From the IMG/VR virus record IMGVR_UViG_3300036944_000990, positions 1-64,000 of that record: a stretch of DNA of 64,000 nucleotides, one strand, 5' to 3'. Position 1 is the first letter of the stretch; each line of letters opens with the position of its first letter. Positions 5,900 through 45,286 of the stretch are shown piece after piece. The position numbers were made by a program, and so were the translations under genes. The notes beneath the pieces are model-generated. The model searched no databases. It worked only from the letters and a program-made list of their open reading frames with translations, and was not told the DNA's origin. The DNA is from a virus.

Positions 5900-6352
5900 C
5901 TACCAATCACAGACTACATCAAGCACCCCAATGCACAGGGATTTGGCCATACCCCGTACAGTCAAGTTCACAGGTTCGTTTAGCCCGTGGAACGAGATCA
6001 GGTGGGTGAGGTGCTTAAATTCGTACTCTAACTGTTGATAGTACTCTGCACTTAAAGGTGCGTGAAATATGTAAGCGGCTGATTTGGAAAATGCGATGTC
6101 CTGAACCAAACTGGACATACGCAACACCGTTGGTTGTGTTCCAATGAAACGAACGGCCACCCCCAAGCGCGGGTCGTCAGGGTCCCACCCTAAACTGGTC
6201 AATGCTGACAGCAGTGTATGGCGAAAGGACTGAGCATCCAAATTGGGGGTCGATGCAAAAACACCAACCACCACAGAATCGTACAGACCTGTTGTCGCCA
6301 TATTGACTTTGGCTGATGGTTGGGGAGCTATGCCCAATAGGAAGTCATCCAT
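5900..6352 (-). CDS. Hypothetical protein, 150 aa
   Basis: ATG at 6352 follows a GGAG about ten bases away and lies six bases after the previous gene. The sequence alternates beta-type strands (SVVVGVFAS, RLGVAVRFIGTQ) and helices and includes a histidine-rich KHLTHLISFHG segment. No family recognised. Same transcription unit as the flanking minus-strand genes. Confidence 0.6.
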   Translation of the reverse strand: MDDFLLGIAPQPSAKVNMATTGLYDSVVVGVFASTPNLDAQSFRHTLLSALTSLGWDPDDPRLGVAVRFIGTQPTVLRMSSLVQDIAFSKSAAYIFHAPLSAEYYQQLEYEFKHLTHLISFHGLNEPVNLTVRGMAKSLCIGVLDVVCDW

Positions 6353-6357
6353 TCGGA

Positions 6358-6615
6358 TTACACTCCGTGTCGGGCAAGCGTCGGAAAAACATGGCGTTCC
6401 AGATCACGCAACCAGAGCCCTACAGGACGTTGGTCGATCAGGTATTCGCGCTCTTTCTGAGTGTTGACTTCCAGTGAGCCGAGGTGGCAACGCAGAAAGC
6501 CGTTGATTTCAGCCTGTTGGGCTTGTGGAGTCTTTGCCGTACAGGTGAAGTTTTGACTGAACTTTTGAGCGACCTCCGGACAGGAACGCTCCAGTCTCTC
6601 CAGCAATTTATTCAT
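6358..6615 (-). CDS. Hypothetical protein, 85 aa
   Basis: Two in-frame ATGs exist (6624 and 6615); AGGA is at correct distance only from 6615. The protein begins MNKLLERLERSC, is basic and helical, and has no recognised motif. Upstream is the terminator at 6721-6764, so a promoter is expected between about 6625 and 6720; an AT-rich block with CATATAGAAC (minus strand) is there. Confidence 0.6.
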   Translation of the reverse strand: MNKLLERLERSCPEVAQKFSQNFTCTAKTPQAQQAEINGFLRCHLGSLEVNTQKEREYLIDQRPVGLWLRDLERHVFPTLARHGV

Positions 6616-6720
6616 GGTACTCATCCTAGTTATCCTCGAATGAAGTTAGTGGGCTGTAAGGAAACAACCTTCGTATCATTACGAGTAGTGTTGGCATTTG
6701 TTCTATATGGTAGGTGATGC

Positions 6721-6764
6721 ATTTAAAAAATAACCGTCATACGCTCAGGCAGAAGCCTGAGCGT
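6721..6764 (-). terminator. Rho-independent terminator
   Basis: A 10-bp stem ACGCTCAGGC / GCCTGAGCGT (6741-6764) is followed on the minus strand by a T-rich tract. It ends the RecA-like unit after the 49-residue ORF. Confidence 0.75.
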
Positions 6765-6774
6765 AGAGGACAGG

Positions 6775-6924
6775 TTAGTCGTGTCGGCGAGTAAGGCCCA
6801 AAGCGAGGCGCAACAGACTCATCAAACCAAACGATCGCCGCTTAAGGCGTTCAGCAGTAAACGGATCAATCTGACGATCTTCGGTTACAATGTCCAAGGT
6901 GCGAAGCCCGAGTGGGCTCATCAT
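6775..6924 (-). CDS. Small ORF, 49 aa, coupled to the RecA-like gene
   Basis: An ATGATG at 6924 overlaps the TGA stop of the RecA-like gene and has a GGAGGG ribosome site six bases upstream. The frame reads 49 residues (MMSPLGLRTLDIVTEDRQ...) and stops at 6775, just before a strong terminator. The C-terminal half is basic and hydrophobic, with a GLMSLLRLALGLTRR amphipathic helix. Coupling, ribosome site and terminator position all support translation. Function unknown; a helper of the recombinase is one possibility. Confidence 0.6.
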   Translation of the reverse strand: MMSPLGLRTLDIVTEDRQIDPFTAERLKRRSFGLMSLLRLALGLTRRHD

Positions 6925-8309
6925 TTAAAACCCTCCGGACTGTACTCCCCTTTAGCCATGCGCAGGATGTCGAAGGTCGACAGGAACTTACGTGGATTCG
7001 AAGCTTCGTCCTCCTTGTAGATCCAGTAGCCCCGACTGTTCAGGATCTTCTTCCAGTCGTAACCTTGCTCTTTGATCTTGGCGTACAGCTCAGCCGGTGC
7101 CATCATGTAGTCAATGGTTTGGCTGAACCCGAGAACATCCATCTGGCAGAGTTCGGAGGTGATTTCTGCAGCCCGCTTTTGTTCGTAGGTTTCCACCAAC
7201 TTACTGCGCACGGTGGTACGTTGCATCACCACTTCGGGGTTGATGTCGAAGTAGTAAGCGCGGTCGTGACCACCCAGACCAAACTTGTAGAACTTGCAGT
7301 AGTTGAATTCGGACAACGACGCCAGCAGACCATCACGCTGCGAATAGATCACTTCGAACGGCATCCCTGTAGGGCCAGACTTGGCCCGCAGGTTCTGCAA
7401 CGTCAGCAGGTTGAGGTCGGTATCCCCCTTGAGGTTGTCATCAGAGTTCTCCGGGTACTCGGGTCCCTTGGTGGTGGCGTTCTGTAGTACCGAAACGCTA
7501 TGGCAGTACCAGAGGTTGTTGGTGAGGAAGGTGAACTTCTCCGGAACGTTTTTGAAGACGTTCTTACCTTTAAGGAAGGCCAACTTCTTCGGGTCCGGGG
7601 CGTACGGGTCGAGTTGATGTTTGTCACCCACGTGAGCTGTGGTGATCACGAAGTTCGAGGCACCAGCTGTCATGTTCGGCAACTGCATCAACATCTGCGT
7701 CTTGGCCGCCGCAGAGCGCAGAGCGTCGGTGTTGGCACCAGAGTCACCGATCTGGTTCTTGTCGTAGATACCTTCGACCGAGTCGGTGATGAACATACTG
7801 AGCGAATCGATCTCGAACAGGTGAGCCATCAGCGTTTGGATGTTGTTACCCTTGTTGTCCACGAACGGCAGTGTCCGAGTCATGGACTTCGTTTCTTTAC
7901 GCTTGGCGTTAGAGAAGTCGCGGAAACGATCGAACCACTTGTTACCCGAGATCATGGTCGAGTCGGTGAGGATCAGCTTACGCAGGTCCACCAAATCCAA
8001 CCCTTGAAGTTCGGGGAACGTAGAGGCGAGGTGATACAGACGCTCCAACATCAGCGACACTTCGGTGTCGTAGAAGTTAGCAGGACTGCCGTAGCGCGCC
8101 AAGGCGCAAAGCATCATGTAGTGTGCAACAAGGGATTTACCCATGTTACCGCGACCCCCAATCCCGGTAAACGGAGCAAGACCACCGTTAAGGATCATCT
8201 CACCGTTTTTACCTTCGTAGTATCGGCCGGTGGGGATGTCCATCAGACAGCCGAGGTTGAGGAAAGGGCGCAGACGTGGCGCTTGGTCAAAATAGTCAGA
8301 AAGTTCCAT
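6921..8309 (-). CDS. RecA-like recombinase / RecA-fold ATPase
   Basis: A 462-residue protein with Walker A GGRGNMGKS (residues 51-59), a likely catalytic Glu in YDTEVS (about 83), and a Walker B strand SMFITDSVEG (Asp 176). After it comes a segment containing NFVITTAHVGDKHQL, like the sensor region of RecA-fold enzymes. This arrangement fits UvsX/RecA/RadA-type DNA recombinases, which coat single-stranded DNA and pair it with homologous duplex. Context supports recombination: RNase H, SbcC-like and RuvC-like genes are in the same window. The exact subfamily cannot be set by eye; a DnaB- or KaiC-like ATPase is the alternative. Confidence 0.75.
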   Translation of the reverse strand: MELSDYFDQAPRLRPFLNLGCLMDIPTGRYYEGKNGEMILNGGLAPFTGIGGRGNMGKSLVAHYMMLCALARYGSPANFYDTEVSLMLERLYHLASTFPELQGLDLVDLRKLILTDSTMISGNKWFDRFRDFSNAKRKETKSMTRTLPFVDNKGNNIQTLMAHLFEIDSLSMFITDSVEGIYDKNQIGDSGANTDALRSAAAKTQMLMQLPNMTAGASNFVITTAHVGDKHQLDPYAPDPKKLAFLKGKNVFKNVPEKFTFLTNNLWYCHSVSVLQNATTKGPEYPENSDDNLKGDTDLNLLTLQNLRAKSGPTGMPFEVIYSQRDGLLASLSEFNYCKFYKFGLGGHDRAYYFDINPEVVMQRTTVRSKLVETYEQKRAAEITSELCQMDVLGFSQTIDYMMAPAELYAKIKEQGYDWKKILNSRGYWIYKEDEASNPRKFLSTFDILRMAKGEYSPEGFK

Positions 8310-30911: not shown

Positions 30912-31406
30912 ATGTTTAATCAAATTCCCGATCTGGTACAAGAGTACATCGACCTGTGTCTGGCCTCCGACTATGCTAAGACCGAAGAAGTGGTCCGCAT
31001 GGTACCTATGCCCAACCGGGACGAGCGTGTGACGTCTGAGCGTTGCCACCTTTTGACTCACCCTCAAACCACCATGAAGATCGAGCGCTTCGAAGACTTC
31101 TGTCCTGAAGCTCGTGCTCTATGTGATTATTTTGCTGCCTTGTACAATCACAAAGGCCCTGTGACAGCACACATCTTTAACAGCCCCAAAGACGGCTTCA
31201 CTTTTGTAGAACACCTCGATCCCGACGATGTGGTGATCTATACAGTCTTTGGCACCAAGACAATGGTAATTGATGGCAAACCCGTTCGGATTGCTGCCGG
31301 TGAACACGTCTACATGAAAGCCAACACACCTCACTACGCCACCAATGAAGAAGCTTCGGTGATGATCAGCATTGGTCTTGAGAAATGGGTAAGGGACAAA
31401 CTATGA
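30912..31406 (+). CDS. JmjC-like cupin protein (putative Fe(II)/2OG oxygenase)
   Basis: ATG after GAGGA. The C-terminal half has the cupin_4/JmjC layout: VEHLDPDDVVIYTVFG with H101-x-D103 as metal ligands, then K116 in GTKTMVIDG, a G-E-H-V-Y-M turn, and H141 in ANTPHYATN as the third ligand. Proteins of this fold hydroxylate amino acid side chains in proteins or peptides using 2-oxoglutarate. The gene overlaps the next (radical-SAM) gene by four bases (ATGA), so the two are translationally coupled and probably act in one pathway. Fold call moderate to good; substrate unknown. Confidence 0.7.
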   Translation: MFNQIPDLVQEYIDLCLASDYAKTEEVVRMVPMPNRDERVTSERCHLLTHPQTTMKIERFEDFCPEARALCDYFAALYNHKGPVTAHIFNSPKDGFTFVEHLDPDDVVIYTVFGTKTMVIDGKPVRIAAGEHVYMKANTPHYATNEEASVMISIGLEKWVRDKL

Positions 31407-32449
31407 GCTACAAGACGCTCTACATCAAAACCACCGGCTCATGTAACCTTGATTGCAAACACTGTTTCACCGGCGGTAAGGGTGGTGACAAAACCCATTT
31501 CAATCCCGAGAAAACAGCACAATGGGTCAAAGACTACATTGAAGCTACCCCAGATGCGGTAAACTATCACCTCGAATTGCACGGTGGGGAACCCTTCTTG
31601 GTACCGGTAGCCAAACTCAAGCAGTTTGTCGACCACTTCAAAGACAACCCCAAAATCACCATCGGGGCCAACACCAACCTGACGTACAAGTTGACAGATG
31701 AGATCTTAGACTTCATCCAGACTTACTTGGGTAGTTCGATTGGAACCAGTTGGGACCCGTGGATTCGTTGGGCCAATGACAAACAGTACCAACTGTGGCT
31801 CAACAACATGAAACGCCTGCGGTCACTGAACGTCAGTCTCTACACGATCGTATCGGTCTCTAAGAGAATGACGGAACAGACGCCAGATTGGTTACTCGAT
31901 CAATTGGCAACGACCGGGGCGACCACAGTGTCACTTGAACGTTTAACGCTCTCAGGCAACGCCGAGCGCAATCCGGACGTTTTCCCAGACAACGAAGCCC
32001 AAGACTATTGGTATTTGGAATTGGTAAAGCGGTATCGGGAACGCAAAGCGGACCTACCGTACAACATCCGTACGTTGGATACCCTGATTGAGAAAGTCAA
32101 TCTTGGGATTGTCAAGACCGATACCAACTGTCGCAACTGTGAGCAGAACTTGGTAACGATCAACTCCAACGGCACTTTGGGTGGCTGTCCTAACGTGGCC
32201 AGTGAACACAAACATGCGACCCTTGATGACTCCGTCCAAACCTTCTTGGTTTCCGATGGACGTGTCAATGAGATCGTCAAAGAACTCAACTTCAACGACC
32301 CGTGTTACTACTGCGACGTGTTCGACATCTGCGGTGGTGACTGTCATCGTCTGCCTTGGCAGGGTGACCGGTGCGGTGGGCTTAAGCACACATTACGCTA
32401 CCTGTCGGGTCGAGTTACAGACTCCAACATCATTTTGAAGGTACGTTAA
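31403..32449 (+). CDS. Radical SAM/SPASM maturase 1
   Basis: Start is the ATG in the ATGA overlap. The 4Fe-4S motif CNLDCKHC is at residues 14-21 and the SAM-binding HGGEP at 60-64. The C-terminus has eight cysteines in SPASM order: C243, C246, C262, C301, C304, C310, C314 and C324, enough for two further iron-sulfur clusters. SPASM enzymes of this layout modify ribosomal peptides or proteins (thioether or C-C bonds, oxidation). The gene directly after it encodes the small protein with the Cys-rich tail. The family call is firm; the chemistry is not known. Confidence 0.9.
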   Translation: MSYKTLYIKTTGSCNLDCKHCFTGGKGGDKTHFNPEKTAQWVKDYIEATPDAVNYHLELHGGEPFLVPVAKLKQFVDHFKDNPKITIGANTNLTYKLTDEILDFIQTYLGSSIGTSWDPWIRWANDKQYQLWLNNMKRLRSLNVSLYTIVSVSKRMTEQTPDWLLDQLATTGATTVSLERLTLSGNAERNPDVFPDNEAQDYWYLELVKRYRERKADLPYNIRTLDTLIEKVNLGIVKTDTNCRNCEQNLVTINSNGTLGGCPNVASEHKHATLDDSVQTFLVSDGRVNEIVKELNFNDPCYYCDVFDICGGDCHRLPWQGDRCGGLKHTLRYLSGRVTDSNIILKVR

Positions 32450-32450
32450 T

Positions 32451-32990
32451 ATGGCACGTAATTTGGAAGCGGCTTGGACGGTGAACCGAGTCAACGCGCT
32501 GATTCGAGATCCGATCAACGCCAGAATTGCTTACGGCACCAACAACCCCCCACACGCCAATACGCCCAGTAGCTGGTTTGGGGGTACGACGGAAGGTTTG
32601 GGGGCGTTGGCGGTAGACAGTAACGTTCAAGGTACTGCCGGCGCTGCAAAGTTAAACAATATGATCCGCAACTACACTCGGTTGTTTAATCGCATCTGTC
32701 GTAAGCGCATGATCATCTACTACAATAACAACGGTTCTTTGCAAGTATGGAGTGATGTGACCGGTATCGGTAACTTCGCTACAGGGGTGGCCGCATCAGC
32801 AATCGCTTCCCCTGCGACAGAATTTAGCGCAGGGTCTAACATCCAAGAGGCGGCTCTTAACAGTCATCTCAACTCGATGTATACTTCATGGTGGAACAAC
32901 GCCGGCAACACCACTGTGGAAACCTTGACTTACACCGTTTGTCACACCTCGTGCCATTCGAACTGTAACTGTAACCGTGGTCGGAGATAA
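32451..32990 (+). CDS. Candidate modification substrate with Cys-rich C-terminus
   Basis: A 179-residue protein with AAGG before its ATG, one base after maturase 1. The body is rich in Asn, Ala, Gly and Trp with few charges, like a virion surface protein, and has one short basic patch (RICRKRM). The end reads VCHTSCHSNCNCNRGRR: cysteines 164, 168, 172 and 174 (C-x3-C-x3-C-x-C), two His after Cys, and an RGRR tail. Apart from one Cys at about 82 these are the only cysteines, so they are clustered on purpose. A short Cys-rich C-terminus next to a SPASM enzyme is the usual sign of a maturase substrate. Alternatives are a metal-binding tail or a disulfide knot on a tail-tip protein. Confidence 0.7.
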   Translation: MARNLEAAWTVNRVNALIRDPINARIAYGTNNPPHANTPSSWFGGTTEGLGALAVDSNVQGTAGAAKLNNMIRNYTRLFNRICRKRMIIYYNNNGSLQVWSDVTGIGNFATGVAASAIASPATEFSAGSNIQEAALNSHLNSMYTSWWNNAGNTTVETLTYTVCHTSCHSNCNCNRGRR

Positions 32991-32994
32991 TTAG

Positions 32995-33702
32995 ATGACT
33001 ACCCCTGTCGTTGTAATTGAAACAACAGCCCCGATACCCGTCGAACTACTCCGTCGTAAGTACACCGAAAACATCCGCTTTGTGATCGACTACTCCACCA
33101 GTCGTTTCAAAGGTCGGACGCTGATTAACTTCCTCAATAACGTGGGGATTGAATGTCAGCTCAAACTCGACAACAACCAAGAATCCTTGGACTTGGTCTC
33201 GGCGTACCTCAACCATCCAGCCGTGGTAGATATCCCAGATCTTAACGACGTGGTGATGAACCTCATGTTGGCTTTGGTTGGTGAGGAAAACTACTTGGCC
33301 TTCGAACCCGAAATGTTCCAAAAGTTCGTCGCTGATAATGAAGCCATTCTTAAAACGTGGTTTCGTCGTGTGGGCTCGATTGGACTATTTCCGTTCTATG
33401 TAAACAAAACCGTAGAGCGCAGCTTCATCGAACAGTTCCCTGTGGACGAGGATGCCTCGTTGCCTGGCTTGAGCTTTGTGCAATTGATGCGTCATCCGCT
33501 CTGGCCACTGTTGGTCAGTCACATTCCACAATCGGCATGGTGCGTTAACCCGACGTTCTTTAACGAGTACATCTTTGCTGGTATGAACTTGATGTACTAC
33601 TTCTCCAATCCTGACAACCCGCTTTGTATGGCCGCCATCACCCGTGATGAAGACCTGAATGAGACGCTCTTAACAGCGCTCAATGAAGCCGGGGAGGAAT
33701 AG
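32995..33702 (+). CDS. Unrecognised cluster protein, 235 aa
   Basis: ATG after GGAG, four bases behind the substrate candidate. A helical soluble protein (VIDYSTSRFKGRTLINFL, LMRHPLWPLLVSHIP) with two cysteines only at C53-like and near the end, so it is not itself an iron-sulfur enzyme. Its place between substrate and enzymes would suit a recognition or carrier protein, but no RRE-like winged-helix pattern is clear by eye. Confidence 0.6.
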   Translation: MTTPVVVIETTAPIPVELLRRKYTENIRFVIDYSTSRFKGRTLINFLNNVGIECQLKLDNNQESLDLVSAYLNHPAVVDIPDLNDVVMNLMLALVGEENYLAFEPEMFQKFVADNEAILKTWFRRVGSIGLFPFYVNKTVERSFIEQFPVDEDASLPGLSFVQLMRHPLWPLLVSHIPQSAWCVNPTFFNEYIFAGMNLMYYFSNPDNPLCMAAITRDEDLNETLLTALNEAGEE

Positions 33703-33705
33703 ACC

Positions 33706-34770
33706 ATGCTACACGTATTTGGCGACCTATACGTCGAAACTGAGTTCCGCGCCTACCCGACCGACAACCAGATCAATATCTCGATGAACACGGGGTTTGA
33801 GAAGGTTGCGCACCCGTTCGTTGAAAACGAAGGCAAGCAGTTTGGTTGGGCATTGAGCTTGGATGAATTCAGTAGTGAGAGTTTCTACGAACTTCTACGT
33901 GCCGCCGTTGACTCTGAACGTAAGGTAATGATTTACGTTGATTCAGAAACCTATGTTCGCTTCTACGCAGCTCTTCTCAAAGCGTTGCTACCCGGCATCA
34001 CCGAGGAAATGTTCAAACAGTTCTTCATCTGCATTAAGGCAACTTACGACCACTCCACCGTCAGCTTCTATGACAGTGTGATGGACCATTCGTTGGCCCT
34101 CAAGATCAATCGGGAATTGGTTGAACGTTATTGGACGTTTGAAGATCCTGAGATCGTCACTGCACTGCGCCGTCTTATCAACAGCGATCCCGACAAGATC
34201 TCTCTTGAGTGGCGAGTGATGAAGTTGTTCGGAACCGGTTACGTAGGTAAGGTGGCCAAGACCATCCAAAACATCATGCGCCGTACGGCAATCAGTAACA
34301 GTCACGACGCCATGGAAGATTGGGGGCGGGTGATCGTCGATCCTACGCGTTGGTCGGTCTCCGGGTGTACGGCAGACGGCTTGCTTGAAGCCGACTCCAC
34401 ATTCCAGGCCTGTGTCAATTTTGGCAATTTGTCTGACCCCGACTTGCGTATCCCAGGGGCGATGAAAAAGAAAGCCAGTCGAGCCTATTTGGTGGAGCTA
34501 CTCACCAACATCGAGAAAGTGTTGGTGGATACTGGTGATCTTGCTTCTGCCAACCGCAGTGCCAATCTGCGCAAAGCGTTGGAGGACGAGTCTGATATGT
34601 CAGACCCAGAGAATCTCAAGCGACGCATTCGCATGTTGTTCGATGGTGGTCCCGCCACTTTCCGCCTCGCCAACCTGGATGCTGCCAAGTACAACGAGAA
34701 CTTGATCCGCACCGTCATTCGTCTGCCTGAAGACCTCATCAAGGACTTGTTGAAAGGAGCCGCCTGGTGA
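33706..34770 (+). CDS. Unrecognised cluster protein, 354 aa
   Basis: ATG after GGAGG; its stop overlaps the GTG of the next gene (GTGA), so it is coupled to radical-SAM protein 2. A mixed alpha/beta start (MLHVFGDLYVETEF, VMIYVDSETYVRFYAALL) is followed by a basic helical second half. No catalytic motif, no membrane helix. It may be a scaffold, chaperone or substrate of the modification enzymes. Confidence 0.6.
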   Translation: MLHVFGDLYVETEFRAYPTDNQINISMNTGFEKVAHPFVENEGKQFGWALSLDEFSSESFYELLRAAVDSERKVMIYVDSETYVRFYAALLKALLPGITEEMFKQFFICIKATYDHSTVSFYDSVMDHSLALKINRELVERYWTFEDPEIVTALRRLINSDPDKISLEWRVMKLFGTGYVGKVAKTIQNIMRRTAISNSHDAMEDWGRVIVDPTRWSVSGCTADGLLEADSTFQACVNFGNLSDPDLRIPGAMKKKASRAYLVELLTNIEKVLVDTGDLASANRSANLRKALEDESDMSDPENLKRRIRMLFDGGPATFRLANLDAAKYNENLIRTVIRLPEDLIKDLLKGAAW

Positions 34771-35765
34771 ATAACCTCATCCCTATCGTCGACGTACTAG
34801 CAGACAAAAAAGGAGAACAGAAGGAAGCTCATTTGATCCTGTTTGAGTACTGTAATCTTCGGTGTAGTTTCTGTCACCAAGACCACGACTCGAAGGTGGG
34901 GATGTCGGCCGACGCCATGTGGGAGAAGGTGTATGCATTGTTTGCAAACACCAACCCCAGTGACCCGTACGTGGTGAACATCACCGGTGGGGAGTTGTTC
35001 TTGGATGAATATCCGGACGACTACTTCGACGTTTACTACGGGATCGCACGTCGGATCTTCGAACACTACGATGACGTGGTGGTGGTTTTTGGGGCGAACT
35101 TGGTGTACGAGAACATTGAACGGGTGGTGCGGTTGCTTGAGCAGCTTAAACCACACGGTAAAGTACAGCTTGCCACCTCGTATGACCCAGCCGGCCGTTT
35201 TGACCGAGAGTCGTTCATGCTTTTCATGCACAACTTAACGCAAGTTAAGGAGTACGTAGAGACCGTGAACGTCGTGATCACTCGACAGAACATCGAAACC
35301 ATTTTGGCTGGGAGAGAAACCGCTACGCTTGACTGGTTGTGTGATAACTTCCAAGTGTTCTTCGACCACTATATCCCCAGCGCACAGTTCGAACGTATCC
35401 AGCCTTCTGAAGATCAGATTGGTAAACTTTACCTGTACCTGAACGAACATCACCCTAATTCCTATCCACTGATCAGTTGGAAAGAGAATTACCGTAACGT
35501 GACCACGTGTCGCTCTACGAAGATCGTAAACAAGGACGGGGTAGTTACAACCTGTTGGTCTGAAGCGGGTAAAGATGCAGTCTTGGATGAGCAGGCCGGA
35601 TTGCTGGCGAAGAATGCGGCTGAGGAGCGTTTTCTTGAGCACTACGAGTGTTTCTCGTGTGAGTACTATCAACGGTGCGGGTTACGGTGTTTCTTGCATC
35701 ACAGCTTCGTTGAGGGTACTACGAGCGAGTGTCAGATAAAAGAAATGTTCCGCAAGATCCTGTAA
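34767..35765 (+). CDS. Radical SAM/SPASM-like protein 2
   Basis: GTG start in a GTGA overlap with GGAG upstream. The cluster motif CNLRCSFC is at residues 29-36 and TGGEL at 73-77. C-terminal cysteines C248, C263, C295, C298, C304, C308 and C322 give a SPASM-like set (CFSCEYYQRCGLRC). Length and layout fit peptide/protein maturases. Last gene before a GNRA hairpin, so it ends the first transcription unit of the cluster. Confidence 0.88.
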   Translation: MNNLIPIVDVLADKKGEQKEAHLILFEYCNLRCSFCHQDHDSKVGMSADAMWEKVYALFANTNPSDPYVVNITGGELFLDEYPDDYFDVYYGIARRIFEHYDDVVVVFGANLVYENIERVVRLLEQLKPHGKVQLATSYDPAGRFDRESFMLFMHNLTQVKEYVETVNVVITRQNIETILAGRETATLDWLCDNFQVFFDHYIPSAQFERIQPSEDQIGKLYLYLNEHHPNSYPLISWKENYRNVTTCRSTKIVNKDGVVTTCWSEAGKDAVLDEQAGLLAKNAAEERFLEHYECFSCEYYQRCGLRCFLHHSFVEGTTSECQIKEMFRKIL

Positions 35766-35870: not shown

Positions 35871-36965
35871 ATGGATCTCATAATCAAAGGCACTTCAAAA
35901 TGTAACTACCGTTGTACTTTCTGTAGCTCCACAGTGCTGTCCGATGACCATAACGATGTGTTGGATATTGCATACATCGATCGCTTCGTACAGCGCTTTG
36001 CAGACACGTTAAACACGGTGATTGTCAACGGTGGTGACCCGTTAATGCTTCCCGTACAGTACTACTGGGACATTCTGGACATTCTGGCCAAATACAACTG
36101 TGAAGCCAAACTCTCGTTCACCAGTAACCTCTGGGCGTTCTATAAAAAGCCTGATCTGTGGACCGACTTGTTTCGCCACCCACAAGTAGGTGTGATCACC
36201 TCATTCCAGTATGGTGACAAGCGCCTTAAGGGCGACCGCACACCGTTTACCGAAGCTGAGTTCTGGGCTATCTCAGATCTGTTTTTGGACCGCGTTGGTT
36301 ATCGACCTGAGTTCATTGCCGTCATTGACCAAGACAATGAACACACCGTCTTGCAAACGGTTGAGTTGGCCAAAGCTATGGGGGTGGAATGTAAGATCAA
36401 CCACGTCCTAGCCTCAGGACCTGAAGTCAACAAGCAGGGTGTGGTGATGGGGAGTGCAAAGAACTTCTTCACCCAAGCCGACATCTACGAACATTACATT
36501 CAGATCATCGAGGCAGGCTTAGGGGAGTGGGAGTACAACTGCAAGCAACTGACAAAGAAGTTGCGTGGCGGTCACACCACCTGCCCTTTAAGTCGTAGTT
36601 GTGATGCCGGTATACGCACACTCCAACCAGACGGCTCCTACTACAGCTGTGGCGCGTTTGGTGACGACCGCACCCATCGTATAGACTTCGATCAGGAAAT
36701 GGCTTCAGCGGCCTTACAGACGCCTTTACAGGACGATCCTGACCTCGATACAATGAAGCTTGCGTGTTATGCTTGTCCGATGTTCGAAATCTGCAATGGG
36801 TGCCGCAAAACCATTGCCGACACTAAGAGGTTTGGGTTACAAGAACACCAGTGTCGCAAGATGAAATCCCTAGCCCCCAAGATCATCGAACTCAACGGTT
36901 TGGTTGGTGTGTTAGAGCCGACCCCGTATGAAGACGAAAGTCTTGAGCTAATCTTTAAAGGATGA
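35871..36965 (+). CDS. Radical SAM/SPASM protein 3
   Basis: ATG after AGGAG. CNYRCTFC at residues 11-18, NGGDP at 53-57 (GGD in place of GGE), and C-terminal cysteines C299, C302, C308, C311 and C328 (CYACPMFEICNGC), with two more Cys in TTCPLSRSC before them. SPASM maturase layout. First gene of the second unit of the cluster; three bases separate it from protein 4. Confidence 0.88.
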   Translation: MDLIIKGTSKCNYRCTFCSSTVLSDDHNDVLDIAYIDRFVQRFADTLNTVIVNGGDPLMLPVQYYWDILDILAKYNCEAKLSFTSNLWAFYKKPDLWTDLFRHPQVGVITSFQYGDKRLKGDRTPFTEAEFWAISDLFLDRVGYRPEFIAVIDQDNEHTVLQTVELAKAMGVECKINHVLASGPEVNKQGVVMGSAKNFFTQADIYEHYIQIIEAGLGEWEYNCKQLTKKLRGGHTTCPLSRSCDAGIRTLQPDGSYYSCGAFGDDRTHRIDFDQEMASAALQTPLQDDPDLDTMKLACYACPMFEICNGCRKTIADTKRFGLQEHQCRKMKSLAPKIIELNGLVGVLEPTPYEDESLELIFKG

Positions 36966-36968
36966 CCT

Positions 36969-37916
36969 ATGAATTCTCAAAATCCTGAACTGACGATTTC
37001 CCTGAATCCATGGTATTATTGTAACCTTGCGTGCGACTTCTGTTATCTGACACCTGAGCAGTTAAACGACAAACAAAAAATCGACCCCGACGTTTTGGCT
37101 CGGCGGTTAGATGAAGTGCTCGAAGCCGGCTATGACATCACCCACGTCGACTTGTATGGGGGTGAACCGAGCCTGTTACCCAAAGCGTATATGGATGAGT
37201 TGAAGCTCACCCTGTTCTCCCGTGGCGTGACGGACATTGTAGTCCACACCAACCTGACGGCTATTAACGACATCGTACTTGATGAAGACTATGAGTTGTC
37301 TGTCTCGTATGACTTCACCTCACGCGAGAAGCACGACCTGGTGTTCAACAACATGTTGTCACTGGAGCGTCGGTACAACGTGTTGACCTTGGCCTCGCGT
37401 ACATTACTGGATACCTTAAGTGCCGATGAGTTTGTCCGCACCTTTAACCTGTTAACTAACGCACGGTTCATCGAGATCAAACCGTACTCGACCAACCAAG
37501 CCAATCAACAAAACGTTCAGTTCGATGAATTCGAACAATTGGTTTATGGGGTAATCAACCACCCTGATCGTTTGTTTGAGTTTGAAAACCAGCGCCTTAT
37601 CGAAACAGCGTTGTCAGGTGAGCGTAACGCGTTTAGTGACGATCACTTGTATATCACCCCAAGGGGTGAGTTTGCAGTGCTGGACTTTGACCTGAATGAC
37701 AATGAGTATTTCAGGCCAATGGCATCGCTTGACGAATACCACCGTTGGTGCGAAAACGAAAAGCGTAAAGTCAACACCAACAGCATCTGCAATAGCTGCC
37801 AGTTCAAAGGCCATTGTCTGTCTGAGCACCTACGAGACGTGAAGTCTTTGGAGCGCTCCTGCAATGGATTTCACAACCTACTCGTAAGGTATCAACGCGA
37901 TGTTTGTTCAACATAG
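36969..37916 (+). CDS. Radical SAM protein 4
   Basis: ATG after AAGGA. CNLACDFC at residues 18-25 and YGGEP at 63-67. The C-terminal cysteines are fewer: C274, C277, C283 and C298 (C-x2-C-x5-C-x14-C), enough for one auxiliary cluster as in twitch-type enzymes. The same spacing recurs in proteins 5 and 6, so 4-6 look like one lineage. Overlaps protein 5 by 17 bases. Confidence 0.85.
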   Translation: MNSQNPELTISLNPWYYCNLACDFCYLTPEQLNDKQKIDPDVLARRLDEVLEAGYDITHVDLYGGEPSLLPKAYMDELKLTLFSRGVTDIVVHTNLTAINDIVLDEDYELSVSYDFTSREKHDLVFNNMLSLERRYNVLTLASRTLLDTLSADEFVRTFNLLTNARFIEIKPYSTNQANQQNVQFDEFEQLVYGVINHPDRLFEFENQRLIETALSGERNAFSDDHLYITPRGEFAVLDFDLNDNEYFRPMASLDEYHRWCENEKRKVNTNSICNSCQFKGHCLSEHLRDVKSLERSCNGFHNLLVRYQRDVCST

Positions 37917-38925
37917 ACAACGTCTTGAAATCACTCTGGACATGTTTCGTGGCTGTGCTCACAGCTGTAGTGGATGTATGGTTGATCGTACACTTGGTGG
38001 TGCGGTCGACGACTTAGTGCCGTTACAAGCACTGTTGCAGGAAATGGTTGCAGCTGGCTTTGTGGCCTTCGACGTAGGGATTGGTCCTACTGACTTTATG
38101 TCAGCTGATAACGTTGATGAGCTGATGTATCACCCGGTGTTTCAAGAGATCGCTCAGATGTTTGAGCAGGTCACTTTTCAAACCGCACTGTTGGATAAGA
38201 ACTTCGACAACTACACTGAGATGTGTCGGATAGTCGATGAAACCTGTCCGGGCAAAGCGATTCGTTTTTTGATTCCAGGTGCACCGGATTTTTTCAAGAC
38301 GCGAAAGTTCGGCGACATGGTGGTGAAGAAACTCAACCATGTCAAGAGCACTCTGAAGTCTGCGTACTTGAACGAAGCAGGTTTTGTGATCAATTGTACT
38401 CGAGATACTGTGGGTGAGCAATTTGATACATCTTTACATCGTATGTTCGATGTTGAGTTTCCTGTCGACAAAGACGACATCCTGAACATCCCGTACGGAC
38501 GTAGTAAAAGTATCGACATCATGCTTGGGCAGAACGTGAAAACAATCAGTCACCGCATCAGTCAGTACTACACAACCTTGGATGTAGACAACGAGCGTTT
38601 CCGTAATCCTGATCGTCATGAAGACACAGGAACCATGCAGAACCTACTCTACACCGACGGAAAGTTGTATTGGGTACCGTTCTTAAAGGATGACTTCGCT
38701 TTTTTGAATGATGCTTTCGTGATCCCAAGACCATGGACCATGGATGCGGTTCTCACAGCGCGTACGGCGGCTATACAGAAGAGCTTGGACTTCCTACAAG
38801 GTACTGAATGTCTGAGTTGTCCGTTGTTGCCCAGTTGTTCTGAGAAAGGCATCACCACCATCATGCGTATGTTGTCAGTACGTGACTGTATTGTGGGAGA
38901 TGAGCATGTTCGTAGCCCAGAGTGA
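37900..38925 (+). CDS. Divergent radical SAM protein 5 (GPTD in place of GGE)
   Basis: Start in an overlap with protein 4. The cluster motif is CAHSCSGC (residues 19-26). Where a GGE motif should stand, the protein has IGPTD (61-65), so SAM is held differently or the protein has lost or changed its chemistry. C-terminal cysteines C304, C307, C313 and C330 keep the twitch-like spacing of protein 4. It is clearly related to protein 6, with which it shares GPTD and an LNHVKS/NHNQ-type end. Confidence 0.8.
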   Translation: MFVQHRQRLEITLDMFRGCAHSCSGCMVDRTLGGAVDDLVPLQALLQEMVAAGFVAFDVGIGPTDFMSADNVDELMYHPVFQEIAQMFEQVTFQTALLDKNFDNYTEMCRIVDETCPGKAIRFLIPGAPDFFKTRKFGDMVVKKLNHVKSTLKSAYLNEAGFVINCTRDTVGEQFDTSLHRMFDVEFPVDKDDILNIPYGRSKSIDIMLGQNVKTISHRISQYYTTLDVDNERFRNPDRHEDTGTMQNLLYTDGKLYWVPFLKDDFAFLNDAFVIPRPWTMDAVLTARTAAIQKSLDFLQGTECLSCPLLPSCSEKGITTIMRMLSVRDCIVGDEHVRSPE

Positions 38926-39946
38926 TGAGGCCTTTAACATCCAGCTGGAGATTTTAAAGGACTGCGGTTATTCGTGTCAGGACTGTGCCATCGACAAAAG
39001 CAAAACCAGTGATTACATGCGAGTCGGGGATGATGACTTGTTAATCCGAGCGGCCGACGAGTTTAAGGACCACGGCTTTCGGTTACATGAATTTACCCTA
39101 GGTCCAACTGACATCATCTCCTCAAAGTCCGGTTTGGGGATCTTTGATCGCTACGTCGTGAAGGAATTGACGCAGCGTTATGATTCACTCACTGTGTCCT
39201 TGGCGTTGTTGTTTGATCGTCAGTTAGTGGAGTTGGCACGCACAGTTGATCGTGTGATGCGGGGCAAGAAGTTTCGACTGATTGTCCCACTCACCATTCG
39301 TAATGCCCACAACGAGAAGTTCTTGAACCTGATTCGTCAGCGGATTAAAGTCATCAAGGACAACTTGTTTGAGACTGATTTTTATATGGTCTATATCGGC
39401 ATTAATATGGTCAACGCTTCGGCTGAAGCATTTAACTTCGACAACAACAAACTGGTTCACGATCTGGATGTTGGGGTTCACCAGACGGTGGAGTACAACT
39501 TCCCTCATTCCCGAATGGGGTTAGAACAACACCGTGCGGCGTTCTTAAACGACCTTCAAGCGTTTATTAACGGTCTACACGAAACAGTAGACCGTGACGC
39601 TAACTACAACCGGTTTCTGGTTCCTAATATCAAAGACAGCATTGAGACCATCTACTACCAAGGTGATCTTTATTATGTCCCAAGCTTAATCGAAAAGTTC
39701 CCGTTGTTCGAACCTACGTTTAAGTTAGCCAGACCCTACTCGATGTCAAGCGTCTTACAATTTAAGTACGACCTCTACACCGAGAACCTGTTGGAGTATA
39801 GCGACAAGCAACCCTGTTCCGATTGTTGTTTTGTTGATGAGTGTGCCCGTGGTGACATACATGTCATCATGCGTAAACTTAACCACAATCAATGTTTACT
39901 TGACATGAAAAACAGGTGGGATCAACCTACCCCAAGGATTCGTTAG
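38906..39946 (+). CDS. Divergent radical SAM protein 6 (GPTD in place of GGE)
   Basis: I chose ATG 38906 because GGGAG lies six bases upstream; earlier in-frame starts lack this spacing. CGYSCQDC is at residues 20-27 and LGPTD at 65-69. C-terminal cysteines C304, C307, C308, C313 and C330. Paralogue of protein 5; the pair may act as a heterodimer, one subunit perhaps being catalytic. The next gene starts directly after its stop. Confidence 0.8.
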   Translation: MFVAQSDEAFNIQLEILKDCGYSCQDCAIDKSKTSDYMRVGDDDLLIRAADEFKDHGFRLHEFTLGPTDIISSKSGLGIFDRYVVKELTQRYDSLTVSLALLFDRQLVELARTVDRVMRGKKFRLIVPLTIRNAHNEKFLNLIRQRIKVIKDNLFETDFYMVYIGINMVNASAEAFNFDNNKLVHDLDVGVHQTVEYNFPHSRMGLEQHRAAFLNDLQAFINGLHETVDRDANYNRFLVPNIKDSIETIYYQGDLYYVPSLIEKFPLFEPTFKLARPYSMSSVLQFKYDLYTENLLEYSDKQPCSDCCFVDECARGDIHVIMRKLNHNQCLLDMKNRWDQPTPRIR

Positions 39947-40396
39947 ATGTCCACTCAACCCCCTTATAAAGAATATCAGTACCTGTATCGGGAGCTGGTA
40001 GAAGAACACGACGATGCGATCGACAAAGTTCCATCCGTTGTGACAGAAAACACCCTCGAGGAAAAACTACGAGGGGCTATGGCGTACTTTGAAGCACAAA
40101 GCTTTCCCATTATCTATCCTGGCAAAAGCTATGGGGTGGCTGTGGTGTACGCCTATCACATCTTGCGTGATTACAACATTCCAGTACTTGAGACGTTAAA
40201 CGAGTCGGACTTGTTCTTAGGTGAGGACCCCTACTTTGTGGTCTATCAGGACGATCCTGAAACTTATGACCGGTTACTGGAAAAACTCCAACCCCTAGGT
40301 GACATTACCGAGTTAGGCTGGGCGAAGCAAACCAGCGAGTACTATCGTTTGGAATGTACCGCCGAGGGCTTGGCTGAAGTCATGGCGCGAGGTTAA
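39947..40396 (+). CDS. Unrecognised cluster protein, 149 aa
   Basis: ATG after AGGA, directly following protein 6. An acidic protein (QYLYRELVEEHDDAID, PYFVVYQDDPETYDRLLEKL) with a mixed alpha/beta pattern, no cysteine cluster and one Cys near the end. A small partner protein that recognises the substrate is possible but not shown. Confidence 0.55.
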   Translation: MSTQPPYKEYQYLYRELVEEHDDAIDKVPSVVTENTLEEKLRGAMAYFEAQSFPIIYPGKSYGVAVVYAYHILRDYNIPVLETLNESDLFLGEDPYFVVYQDDPETYDRLLEKLQPLGDITELGWAKQTSEYYRLECTAEGLAEVMARG

Positions 40397-44053: not shown

Positions 44054-44425
44054 TTATTTACCTCGCAAGTTGACCCTCTTGGCCGTTTCCTCATACCATT
44101 TCTGGAAAGATTCTTGCGTTGCAAAACAAAGACCCAGGTTTTTAGTCTGGATCATGTACGCCAATGAAGCCATCAACAGCTGTTCTTCAGGGGTTGCTCG
44201 GTTGAACGCTTCGAGATCCGGCGGGGGTTGTACCGGTGCTTTTCTTTGGTACTCCGGTGGGATCTGGCTTGGGAGGTCCGTTGAGGGATTGGGTGGAGGC
44301 ATACGCGTTCCACATCCCGTTGATAGCAGAGCTAGCAATATCAGGACGAATACTAGCAACAGTGTTTTGAGGTTCGGGCTTTTTGGCGTTGACGGCCAGC
44401 TCGTACCGAAACTTAGTGAGCACAT
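44054..44425 (-). CDS. Outer-membrane spanin (Rz1-like lipoprotein)
   Basis: ATG at 44425 has GAGG six bases upstream and starts inside the i-spanin gene in another frame. A hydrophobic signal (residues about 21-37, LLLVFVLILLALLSTGC) ends in a lipobox-like STGC with the lipid-attached Cys at 38. The mature part is Pro-rich (MPPPNPSTDLPSQIPP). This is typical of the outer-membrane half of the two-part spanin that fuses the membranes at lysis. Confidence 0.8.
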   Translation of the reverse strand: MCSLSFGTSWPSTPKSPNLKTLLLVFVLILLALLSTGCGTRMPPPNPSTDLPSQIPPEYQRKAPVQPPPDLEAFNRATPEEQLLMASLAYMIQTKNLGLCFATQESFQKWYEETAKRVNLRGK

Positions 44426-44699
44426 TTTCAACCTCGGTCTGGTAACCAAGTTGCACATCAGTAAACTTGGTGGTGGTGTTAAACCAATCCTCGACCGATT
44501 CGCGATCAATGCGCATTTGTTCACGCAGATCTTCCACATCCGCCGTCAGGTCTGAAACCTTCTGTTGCGAATCTTCAAGCGAGGACGTTAGTTCGTTGAT
44601 GGTTTTTTCTTGACTGTAAATCTTCCACTGCGTCCAACTCACCACAGCGACGATCGCAATCATGAGTAGATTGCGAGGGTTAAGAAAGAACTTGGACAT
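44187..44699 (-). CDS. Inner-membrane spanin (Rz-like)
   Basis: ATG at 44699 has AGGAG at seven bases and overlaps the stop of the RuvC-like gene. An N-terminal membrane segment (about 9-22, NLLMIAIVAVVSWTQW) is followed by a long coiled coil (about 28-75) and a Pro-rich tail. Together with the nested lipoprotein it forms the spanin pair. Confidence 0.82.
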   Translation of the reverse strand: MSKFFLNPRNLLMIAIVAVVSWTQWKIYSQEKTINELTSSLEDSQQKVSDLTADVEDLREQMRIDRESVEDWFNTTTKFTDVQLGYQTEVENVLTKFRYELAVNAKKPEPQNTVASIRPDIASSAINGMWNAYASTQSLNGPPKPDPTGVPKKSTGTTPAGSRSVQPSNP

Positions 44700-45286
44700 T
44701 AAACTTCTCCTAGCAACCACTTACGTACCAGGGTGTACTTGTAGTACCCAACCGCAATGGCGTCGATGGTGTGTTCGTCAAAACTTTCCATCGATGTACC
44801 TGTGAGGTTGTTCAGGTGCGTAAGTTTGAGGATGCTTTCTTTGACGTTGTCTTTACTACCCTTTTTAACCAGAGCACCCACGGCCGATTTAGCACTGGGG
44901 GGATCAATGGTTTCCAACGGCATAAAGGCATCGTACTGAGTCAGGGCTCTGCGAATCGTTGCCTTACACTCCACGAGGGATTCAAAGGCTTGTGGGAAAC
45001 GTCCCAGAAATGGTGACTCGCAGATCAACGCATGCGGTTGATAAGTCCGAAGCCAGTGGAGGATGTTTTGTTCATGCATAAAAAGCTTGGCCCAACGGTC
45101 ACCGTGAATAGTGAAACTGTCAGGCGCTTTTCGACTCATGCGCAACCCCGAGGACGTGTAAGCAGACACCAAGTCCAACCCATACGTTCTCAGGTCCACA
45201 TCCAGTACCGCCAACCCCATGGTGTCAGTCCCAGGGTCAATGGCACAGATTCGGTACTTACCCACCCCTTGTGGGACGGTAAGCAT
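44699..45286 (-). CDS. ruvC-like: RuvC-like Holliday junction resolvase
   Basis: ATG after AAGGGG. The motifs of the RuvC/RNase H fold are present: D17 in AIDPGTDTMG, a second acid in ALICESPF, and the pair DEHTIDAIAVGYY near the end. Phage relatives cut Holliday junctions or branched DNA during recombination and packaging. Fits with the RecA-like and SbcC-like genes in this window. Confidence 0.82.
   Translation of the reverse strand: MLTVPQGVGKYRICAIDPGTDTMGLAVLDVDLRTYGLDLVSAYTSSGLRMSRKAPDSFTIHGDRWAKLFMHEQNILHWLRTYQPHALICESPFLGRFPQAFESLVECKATIRRALTQYDAFMPLETIDPPSAKSAVGALVKKGSKDNVKESILKLTHLNNLTGTSMESFDEHTIDAIAVGYYKYTLVRKWLLGEV

Follow-up and report, generated by a model that had tools for sequence, protein, structure and literature searches.

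Radical S-adenosylmethionine (SAM) enzymes typically carry Gly-Gly-Glu (GGE) where strand 2 ends, a motif that is not retained in every known member, and maturases of the SPASM type usually have 7-8 auxiliary cysteines. Here we analyze a stretch of viral DNA of 64,000 nucleotides (positions 1 to 64,000 of the 131,545-base IMG/VR virus record IMGVR_UViG_3300036944_000990; hereafter the window) that encodes two adjacent radical-SAM-like paralogues, proteins 5 and 6, with Pro-Thr-Asp (PTD) where GGE is expected; they follow four canonical radical-SAM genes (rSAM1-4) and the gene of a small protein ending in a Cys/His tail. A sequence-only reading had seen in the pair either a distinct subclass or pseudo-enzymes that recognize the substrate for the other four.

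In SkfB, SAM is held by its amino and carboxyl groups through the GGE residues together with an Arg (PMC6231123). Among phages, the radical-SAM cassettes of pelagimyophages vary inside the host-recognition cluster (PMC7029224), Aeromonas phage 332-Vera has eight radical-SAM genes in its structural cluster, termed highly unusual (PMC12390700), a marine T4-like genome with 12 such genes has been interpreted in terms of Fe-S metabolism (PMC5332604), and the papers on FLC6, S13 and RP12/RP31 list radical-SAM genes without a function (PMC8066314, PMC11898562, PMC5468394). Our search of the open-access literature found no description of the tail or of the PTD class in the titles and text available.

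Results

Protein 5 (341 amino acids; positions 37900-38925, plus strand, from ATG 37900) is assigned as a PTD-type radical-SAM protein by its open reading frame (ORF), motifs, relatives and model, and protein 6 (38882-39946, plus strand) starts at GTG 38882 or, more likely, at ATG 38906, which gives 346 amino acids. Both ORFs bear out what had been read from the sequence: a CxxxCxxC motif, a C-terminal Cys set and GPTD instead of GGE. In protein 5 these are C19-x3-C23-x2-C26 (37954-37977), GPTD at residues 62-65 (38083-38094), at the strand-2 end that carries GGE in canonical enzymes, and C304-x2-C307-x5-C313-x16-C330 (38809-38889), a probable auxiliary cluster site; in protein 6, CxxxCxxC lies at 38963-38986 and GPTD at 39101-39112, all on the plus strand, and the C-terminal Cys set is the same. 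The genes are interlocked, the start of protein 5 overlapping the end of rSAM4 by 17 bases and that of protein 6 (from ATG 38906) the end of protein 5 by 20 bases.

These residues persist in a family whose members share down to about 16% identity. Every one of 72 full-length relatives from the homology search has CxxxCxxC, Asp65, R201 and all four C-terminal Cys; in a wider scan, Asp65 is found in 133/133 distinct members, CxxxCxxC, the signature of the radical-SAM superfamily, in 132/133 and CxxC...C in 129/133. The motif itself reads GPTD in 110 of these members, GPVD in 8, LPTD in 4, QPTD and SPTD in 3 each, GATD in 2, and APVD, GPSD and RLGD in 1 each: the GPTD of the sequence-only reading is present, but its Gly is not conserved, the residue before P-T-D being free (G, L, Q, S, A). 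The canonical neighbours keep their own motifs, with HGGE in 98/98 rSAM1, xGGE ([MTVL]GGE) in 77/77 rSAM2 and YGGE in 52/52 rSAM4 proteins; rSAM3 has NGGD in 57/60, TGGE in 1/60 and gaps in 2/60.

The replacement of x-G-G-E by x-P-T-D is probably one for one, because hhalign of the PTD family against rSAM2 pairs P with G, T with G and D with E, placing x-PTD in register with x-GGE. Only Gly-Gly would then have been exchanged, for Pro-Thr, and the acidic residue of GGE, rather than being lost, is probably retained as Asp. By analogy, R201 is a candidate for the SAM-holding role of the Arg of SkfB. A normal SAM motif displaced to another place, which would have spoken against the sequence-only reading, was sought in the PTD rows, and none was found: immediately downstream of the Cys loop, GG[DE] occurs in only 22/132 rows, all in the protein-5 clade, where it lies in a coil before helix 1, and it was rejected as such a motif.

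The AlphaFold2 model of protein 5, based on 44 aligned sequences (predicted local distance difference test, pLDDT, 91.6; predicted template modelling score, pTM, 0.90), has a full radical-SAM/SPASM-like fold. Strand 8-14 is followed by the Cys loop, helix 36-51, strand 55-61 and then GPTD; the prediction is a partial TIM-barrel whose first strand leads into the Cys loop and whose second leads into GPTD. The first 40 rows of VIA-align hold radical-SAM enzymes exclusively, and the unrelated xylanases start at Z 9.3. The best structural match is anSME 4k36 (Z 15.8, root mean square deviation 4.2, 293 aligned), and further matches include ChlB 9gm3 (Z 14.4), SuiB 5v1t (14.0), TigE 8vpo (12.9) and SkfB 6efn (12.5); Foldseek agrees, its best match being SuiB (E 8.7e-6). 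Sequence searches of solved structures gave chance matches only. The four C-terminal Cys may serve one extra cluster, as in Twitch-type enzymes, a predicted site only.

Standard libraries pass over the family. PF04055 (Radical_SAM) gives no match to proteins 5 and 6 at E<=1, nor is its curated cut-off reached, and the SPASM profile TIGR04085 gives no match, the proteins having CxxCx5C plus one Cys and not the 7-Cys arrangement; both match phrog_31457 (3.3e-9 and 7e-6), an entry without a function that is not annotated as radical SAM. IMG/VR viral contigs scanned with protein 5 or 6 singly yielded no relatives, and scanned with a six-row alignment 30 loci. A tblastn search of 50,697 phage records found convincing relatives in four phages: Pseudomonas phage pPa_SNUABM_DT01 carries a PTD pair in the window's order, and one copy each is found in Burkholderia phages FLC6, FLC8 and SURPRISE13, with QPTD in the two that were translated. 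The annotated start of FLC6 gp75 (locus L002, 12127-13035) removes the CxxxCxxC part, and the gene has been overlooked as radical SAM because of this; its open frame extends upstream with the motif.

Across 33 loci (L001-L003 and L006-L035, some of them near-duplicates), rSAM1, the tail protein, rSAM2, rSAM3, rSAM4, protein 5 and protein 6 lie on one strand in 24; the other nine comprise four cut short, three with one copy and two with five copies arranged otherwise. The distinct subclass proposed from the sequence is upheld by hhalign, in which rSAM1-4 reach probabilities of 97-99% among themselves and 8-93% against the PTD family, and by phylogeny: in a tree of 80 members, the protein-5 orthologues of this phage group form one clade (12 rows, support 100/100) and the protein-6 orthologues a separate one (22 rows, 100/99), and other phages add further paralogue clades. 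Judged from these two separate, well-supported clades, one for each gene, the pair is an old duplication and not a recent one, in which both copies retain the motifs. PTD copy number ranges from 0 (phage Atu_ph07) to 7 (one Bdellovibrionota contig), and radical-SAM matches over the Pfam cut-off are present in 18/20 whole contigs with PTD genes, the other two being pieces of 18-33 kb.

The tail belongs to a protein of 179 amino acids (32451-32990, plus strand), encoded 5 kb upstream of the PTD pair, which consists of a domain of unknown fold and a C-terminus that reads CHTSCHSNCNCNRGRR (32940-32987, plus strand); its third unit is CNCN, where most relatives have CHxS. We propose this protein as the substrate of the cassette. 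In 25 aligned homologues the invariant columns all fall in the tail (C-H-x-x-C-H-x-x-C and R-G-R-R), and the rest is variable. Two tails are enlarged, to 14 (L007, 4425-4631) and 13 (L026, 4972-5169) CHxx units spaced by VPV or V, an expansion that by analogy resembles repeated cores. The model of the tail protein (pLDDT 81.9) matches only uncharacterized viral proteins, one from Atu_ph07, and in VIA-align two rows only (Z 2.5 and 2.1). The C-terminus of phrog_35144, a family of unknown function that PHROGs does not link to radical SAM, is matched by the window's tail protein and by 9/10 other tail proteins.

The larger finding is this tail and its linkage with radical-SAM cassettes in many phages. 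The DNA pattern CHxxCHxxCHxxRxRR-stop occurs in at least 120 stretches in IMG/VR and in 19 among 84,980 species genomes. Among the matches listed, to which the tail counts below also refer, the tail coincides exactly with the end of an ORF in 135/139 loci (161 ORFs), and 128/135 loci with a tail ORF have radical-SAM matches within the fetched DNA. For viral loci the figure is 113/119, and the remaining six have such genes elsewhere on the contig; the motif [C-H-x-S/N]x3-R-G-R-R forms the C-terminus of proteins in at least 119 viral loci, every one of which has radical-SAM genes. In the bacterial collection, 15/16 tail loci have them. Of the four loci without a tail ORF, one is viral and has rSAM1, and three are bacterial and show no radical-SAM match in the fetched DNA. 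Controls were negative: a radical-SAM match is present in 0/22 viral loci chosen through an arbitrary 15-mer, and an order-swapped pattern matches 0 stretches. Positions that the pattern leaves free are also fixed (position 4 is S in 147/161, position 8 S/N in 157/161, position 12 S in 147/161, position 14 G in 147/161), and rSAM1 ends <=60 bases upstream of the tail ORF in 82/161. PTD genes are found in 44/135 tail loci, with a maximum of 6 per fetched stretch, and a PTD gene starting where a tail gene ends was seen 22 times.

A prediction was borne out on the Bdellovibrionota contig with 7 PTD genes, which has no exact tail: the ORF right after its rSAM1 ends in a variant tail, ICHSNCYTPPPKSRSRR. 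A cellular system in this phylum was considered; PTD genes and the tail are sporadic there, each in 3/144 genomes.

Several relatives deserve mention in their own right. A distant LPTD sub-branch, in which F-Y follows CxxxCxxC, comprises L063 2218-3246, L131 7858-8883, L165 5892-6905 and L173 4998-5999, and each of these genes adjoins a tail gene. On a Bacteriovorax contig (L161), the ORF at 737-1636, beside the tail gene, is PTD-like without the cluster cysteines or PTD, possibly a true pseudo-enzyme, and the protein encoded at 5955-7142, near the radical-SAM tail cassette, combines a prepilin-like N_methyl start with a Peptidase_S74 tail-fibre chaperone domain and is perhaps a cellular adhesin. 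The annotation of Atu_ph07 gp164 (L036, 20342-21055) leaves out the N-terminal half of rSAM4, where the frame is open for 319 amino acids in all; the short form is likely a start-site error.

The rest of the cassette is read from the plus strand of the window. It opens with a cupin/JmjC-like protein (30912-31406), followed by rSAM1 (HGGE; 31385-32449) directly upstream of the tail gene; rSAM1 scores best with NCBIfam maturases such as TIGR03942. Directly after the tail gene come a conserved partner, phrog_20767 (32995-33702), and a conserved protein of 354 amino acids (33706-34770), both of unknown function, then rSAM2 (TGGE; 34767-35765), rSAM3 (NGGD; 35871-36965) and rSAM4 (YGGE; 36969-37916). 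Beyond the PTD pair lie phrog_20737, a conserved cassette protein of unknown function (39947-40396), and two 2-oxoglutarate (2OG)-Fe(II) oxygenases (PF13759; 40398-40958 and 40979-41533). In the Burkholderia phages the cassette also holds two dihydrofolate-reductase-like genes (L002, 14104-15317). On the minus strand of the window, two overlapping ORFs at 44054-44720 resemble a nested spanin pair (Rz/Rz1).

Discussion

We regard it as reasonably probable, and as the best explanation of the whole, that proteins 5 and 6 are an active pair within a phage cassette that modifies the Cys/His tail of a probable virion protein. From their sequences and the model, both would be old paralogues of a radical-SAM/SPASM-fold family, here called PTD-type, and most likely active: CxxxCxxC would bind a [4Fe-4S] cluster, PTD at the end of strand 2 would hold SAM for cleavage, with Asp in the place of Glu, and the C-terminal Cys set would carry an auxiliary cluster. 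Together with the four canonical radical-SAM proteins, the two 2OG-Fe(II) oxygenases and the cupin protein, they may modify the [C-H-x-S/N]n-RGRR tail of the small protein encoded beside rSAM1. The layout recalls ribosomally synthesized and post-translationally modified peptides in having a small putative precursor beside its maturases (rSAM1 adjacency and radical-SAM linkage as counted above). Such systems have a modified core at one end that is often repeated, a place that the invariant C-terminal motif, with its repeats in L007 and L026, may take here; the tail may stay on its protein. The modification could consist of thioethers formed by Cys, of links between Cys and His or of hydroxylation through the two 2OG oxygenases. 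Atu_ph07 encodes a cupin-like gene (by sequence look), rSAM1, the tail protein, rSAM2, rSAM3 and rSAM4, and since it has the canonical set and the tail without PTD, the PTD enzymes appear as an addition to a basic canonical set, extra tailoring enzymes that would add further cross-links or oxidations to the tail.

The alternative raised by the sequence-only reading, that proteins 5 and 6 keep fold and cluster without cleaving SAM, as pseudo-enzymes or as adaptors that hand the tail protein to rSAM1-4, finds some encouragement in the absence of GGE, in the canonical radical-SAM genes that PTD genes accompany on 18/20 contigs and in the degenerate relative beside the Bacteriovorax tail gene. We nevertheless consider it unlikely: CxxxCxxC and the Asp are almost perfectly conserved (132/133 and 133/133), the auxiliary Cys are near-invariant, the modelled fold is normal, and a copy number of 0 to 7, with the tail and canonical genes of Atu_ph07 doing without PTD, is more in keeping with tailoring enzymes than with an obligatory adaptor.

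It is also conceivable, but quite unlikely, that metal or haem binding, without covalent change, is the role of the CHx(S/N) tail and that the cassette modifies another part of the same protein. CxxxCH is similar to a variant of the c-haem motif, and metals are bound by the tips of phage spikes. The free tail positions are, however, nearly as fixed as Cys and His, the invariant RGRR would not be a set of metal ligands, and no annotated neighbour indicates haem maturation or export, although no search aimed at these was made. That the radical-SAM genes are auxiliary metabolic genes for host metabolites or Fe-S metabolism, with the tail protein a bystander, a reading of the Fe-S kind having been given to marine phages in which up to 12 radical-SAM genes occur (PMC5332604, PMC7150976), is very improbable given that 119/119 viral tail loci carry radical-SAM genes, that rSAM1 lies so close to the tail ORF in 82/161, that the fold is like that of peptide/protein maturases and that rSAM1 itself scores best with maturases.

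Several observations weigh against an active PTD pair acting on the tail. The connection between PTD enzymes and tail is by neighbourhood only, because Atu_ph07, at 490 kb, has no convincing PTD member despite its tail and canonical enzymes, and 91/135 tail loci show no PTD gene in the fetched DNA. Pfam and NCBIfam give no radical-SAM match for proteins 5 and 6. The register of PTD with GGE comes from one of the two comparisons that reach the motif, and is only probable because hhalign against rSAM1 pairs the motif elsewhere and the alignments with rSAM3 and rSAM4 end before it. The window's own tail departs from the pattern in its third unit, and the tail loci are partly redundant, with several contigs present twice and some of the at least 120 stretches coming from contigs of the first set. 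As to location, the Atu_ph07 tail protein is gp170, and the virion proteins identified by electrospray ionization tandem mass spectrometry fall mostly in coding sequences (CDS) 31-76, 170-215 and 284-329 (PMC6102473), a numbering that agrees with the record, in which gp215 is the major head protein. Since the border of a virion gene cluster lies at CDS 170, and from this border only, detection of gp170 in virions is suggested. The tail protein would probably be built into the virion, close to the tail fibres.

More tentatively, and with more doubt than confidence, we propose a widespread, undescribed viral system, found in phages and a few predatory bacteria, in which between four and about twelve radical-SAM enzymes per cassette, among them a PTD subclass in <=7 copies, build a heavily cross-linked or oxidized [CHx(S/N)]n-RGRR on a virion protein for host recognition or entry. 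If so, radical-SAM chemistry would be found on a virus particle and, with the tail on the virion, oxygen-sensitive radical chemistry would be used for building phage particles. A shared and countable substrate motif would offer a testable answer to why many phages have many radical-SAM/Fe-S genes, and a new radical-SAM subclass, overlooked by standard profiles, would have an altered SAM motif open to point-change tests.

How do these cassettes compare with known systems? The pelagimyophage and 332-Vera cassettes are alike in having many radical-SAM genes by tail-fibre genes; compared by description, the available parts of both reports give neither a substrate nor a PTD class (PMC7029224, PMC12390700). 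The His-Xaa-Ser system (HxsABCD, TIGR03976-TIGR03979) shares two or more radical-SAM proteins and the His-Xaa-Ser contained in the C-[H-x-S] units of the tail, and rSAM1 matches HxsB weakly (1.7e-7) and rSAM3 HxsC (4.6e-6), curated cut-offs being far off. What sets the tail apart is that each His follows a Cys and that RGRR comes last; identity of the tail protein with HxsA (TIGR03979) was rejected, with 0/8 tail proteins, the window's included, matching at E<=10 and 0/6 records over the cut-off, a weak match on the L026 contig lying ~9 kb from its tail gene. The PTD enzymes themselves are most like anSME, ChlB, SuiB, TigE, SkfB and CteB, with a whole-length structural match (Z 12-16), CxxxCxxC after strand 1 and a C-terminal Cys set. 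They differ from these maturases as follows: (i), x-PTD stands for x-GGE and the auxiliary Cys are four; (ii), they have no Pfam/NCBIfam match; (iii), they are encoded in a phage cassette with up to seven paralogues.

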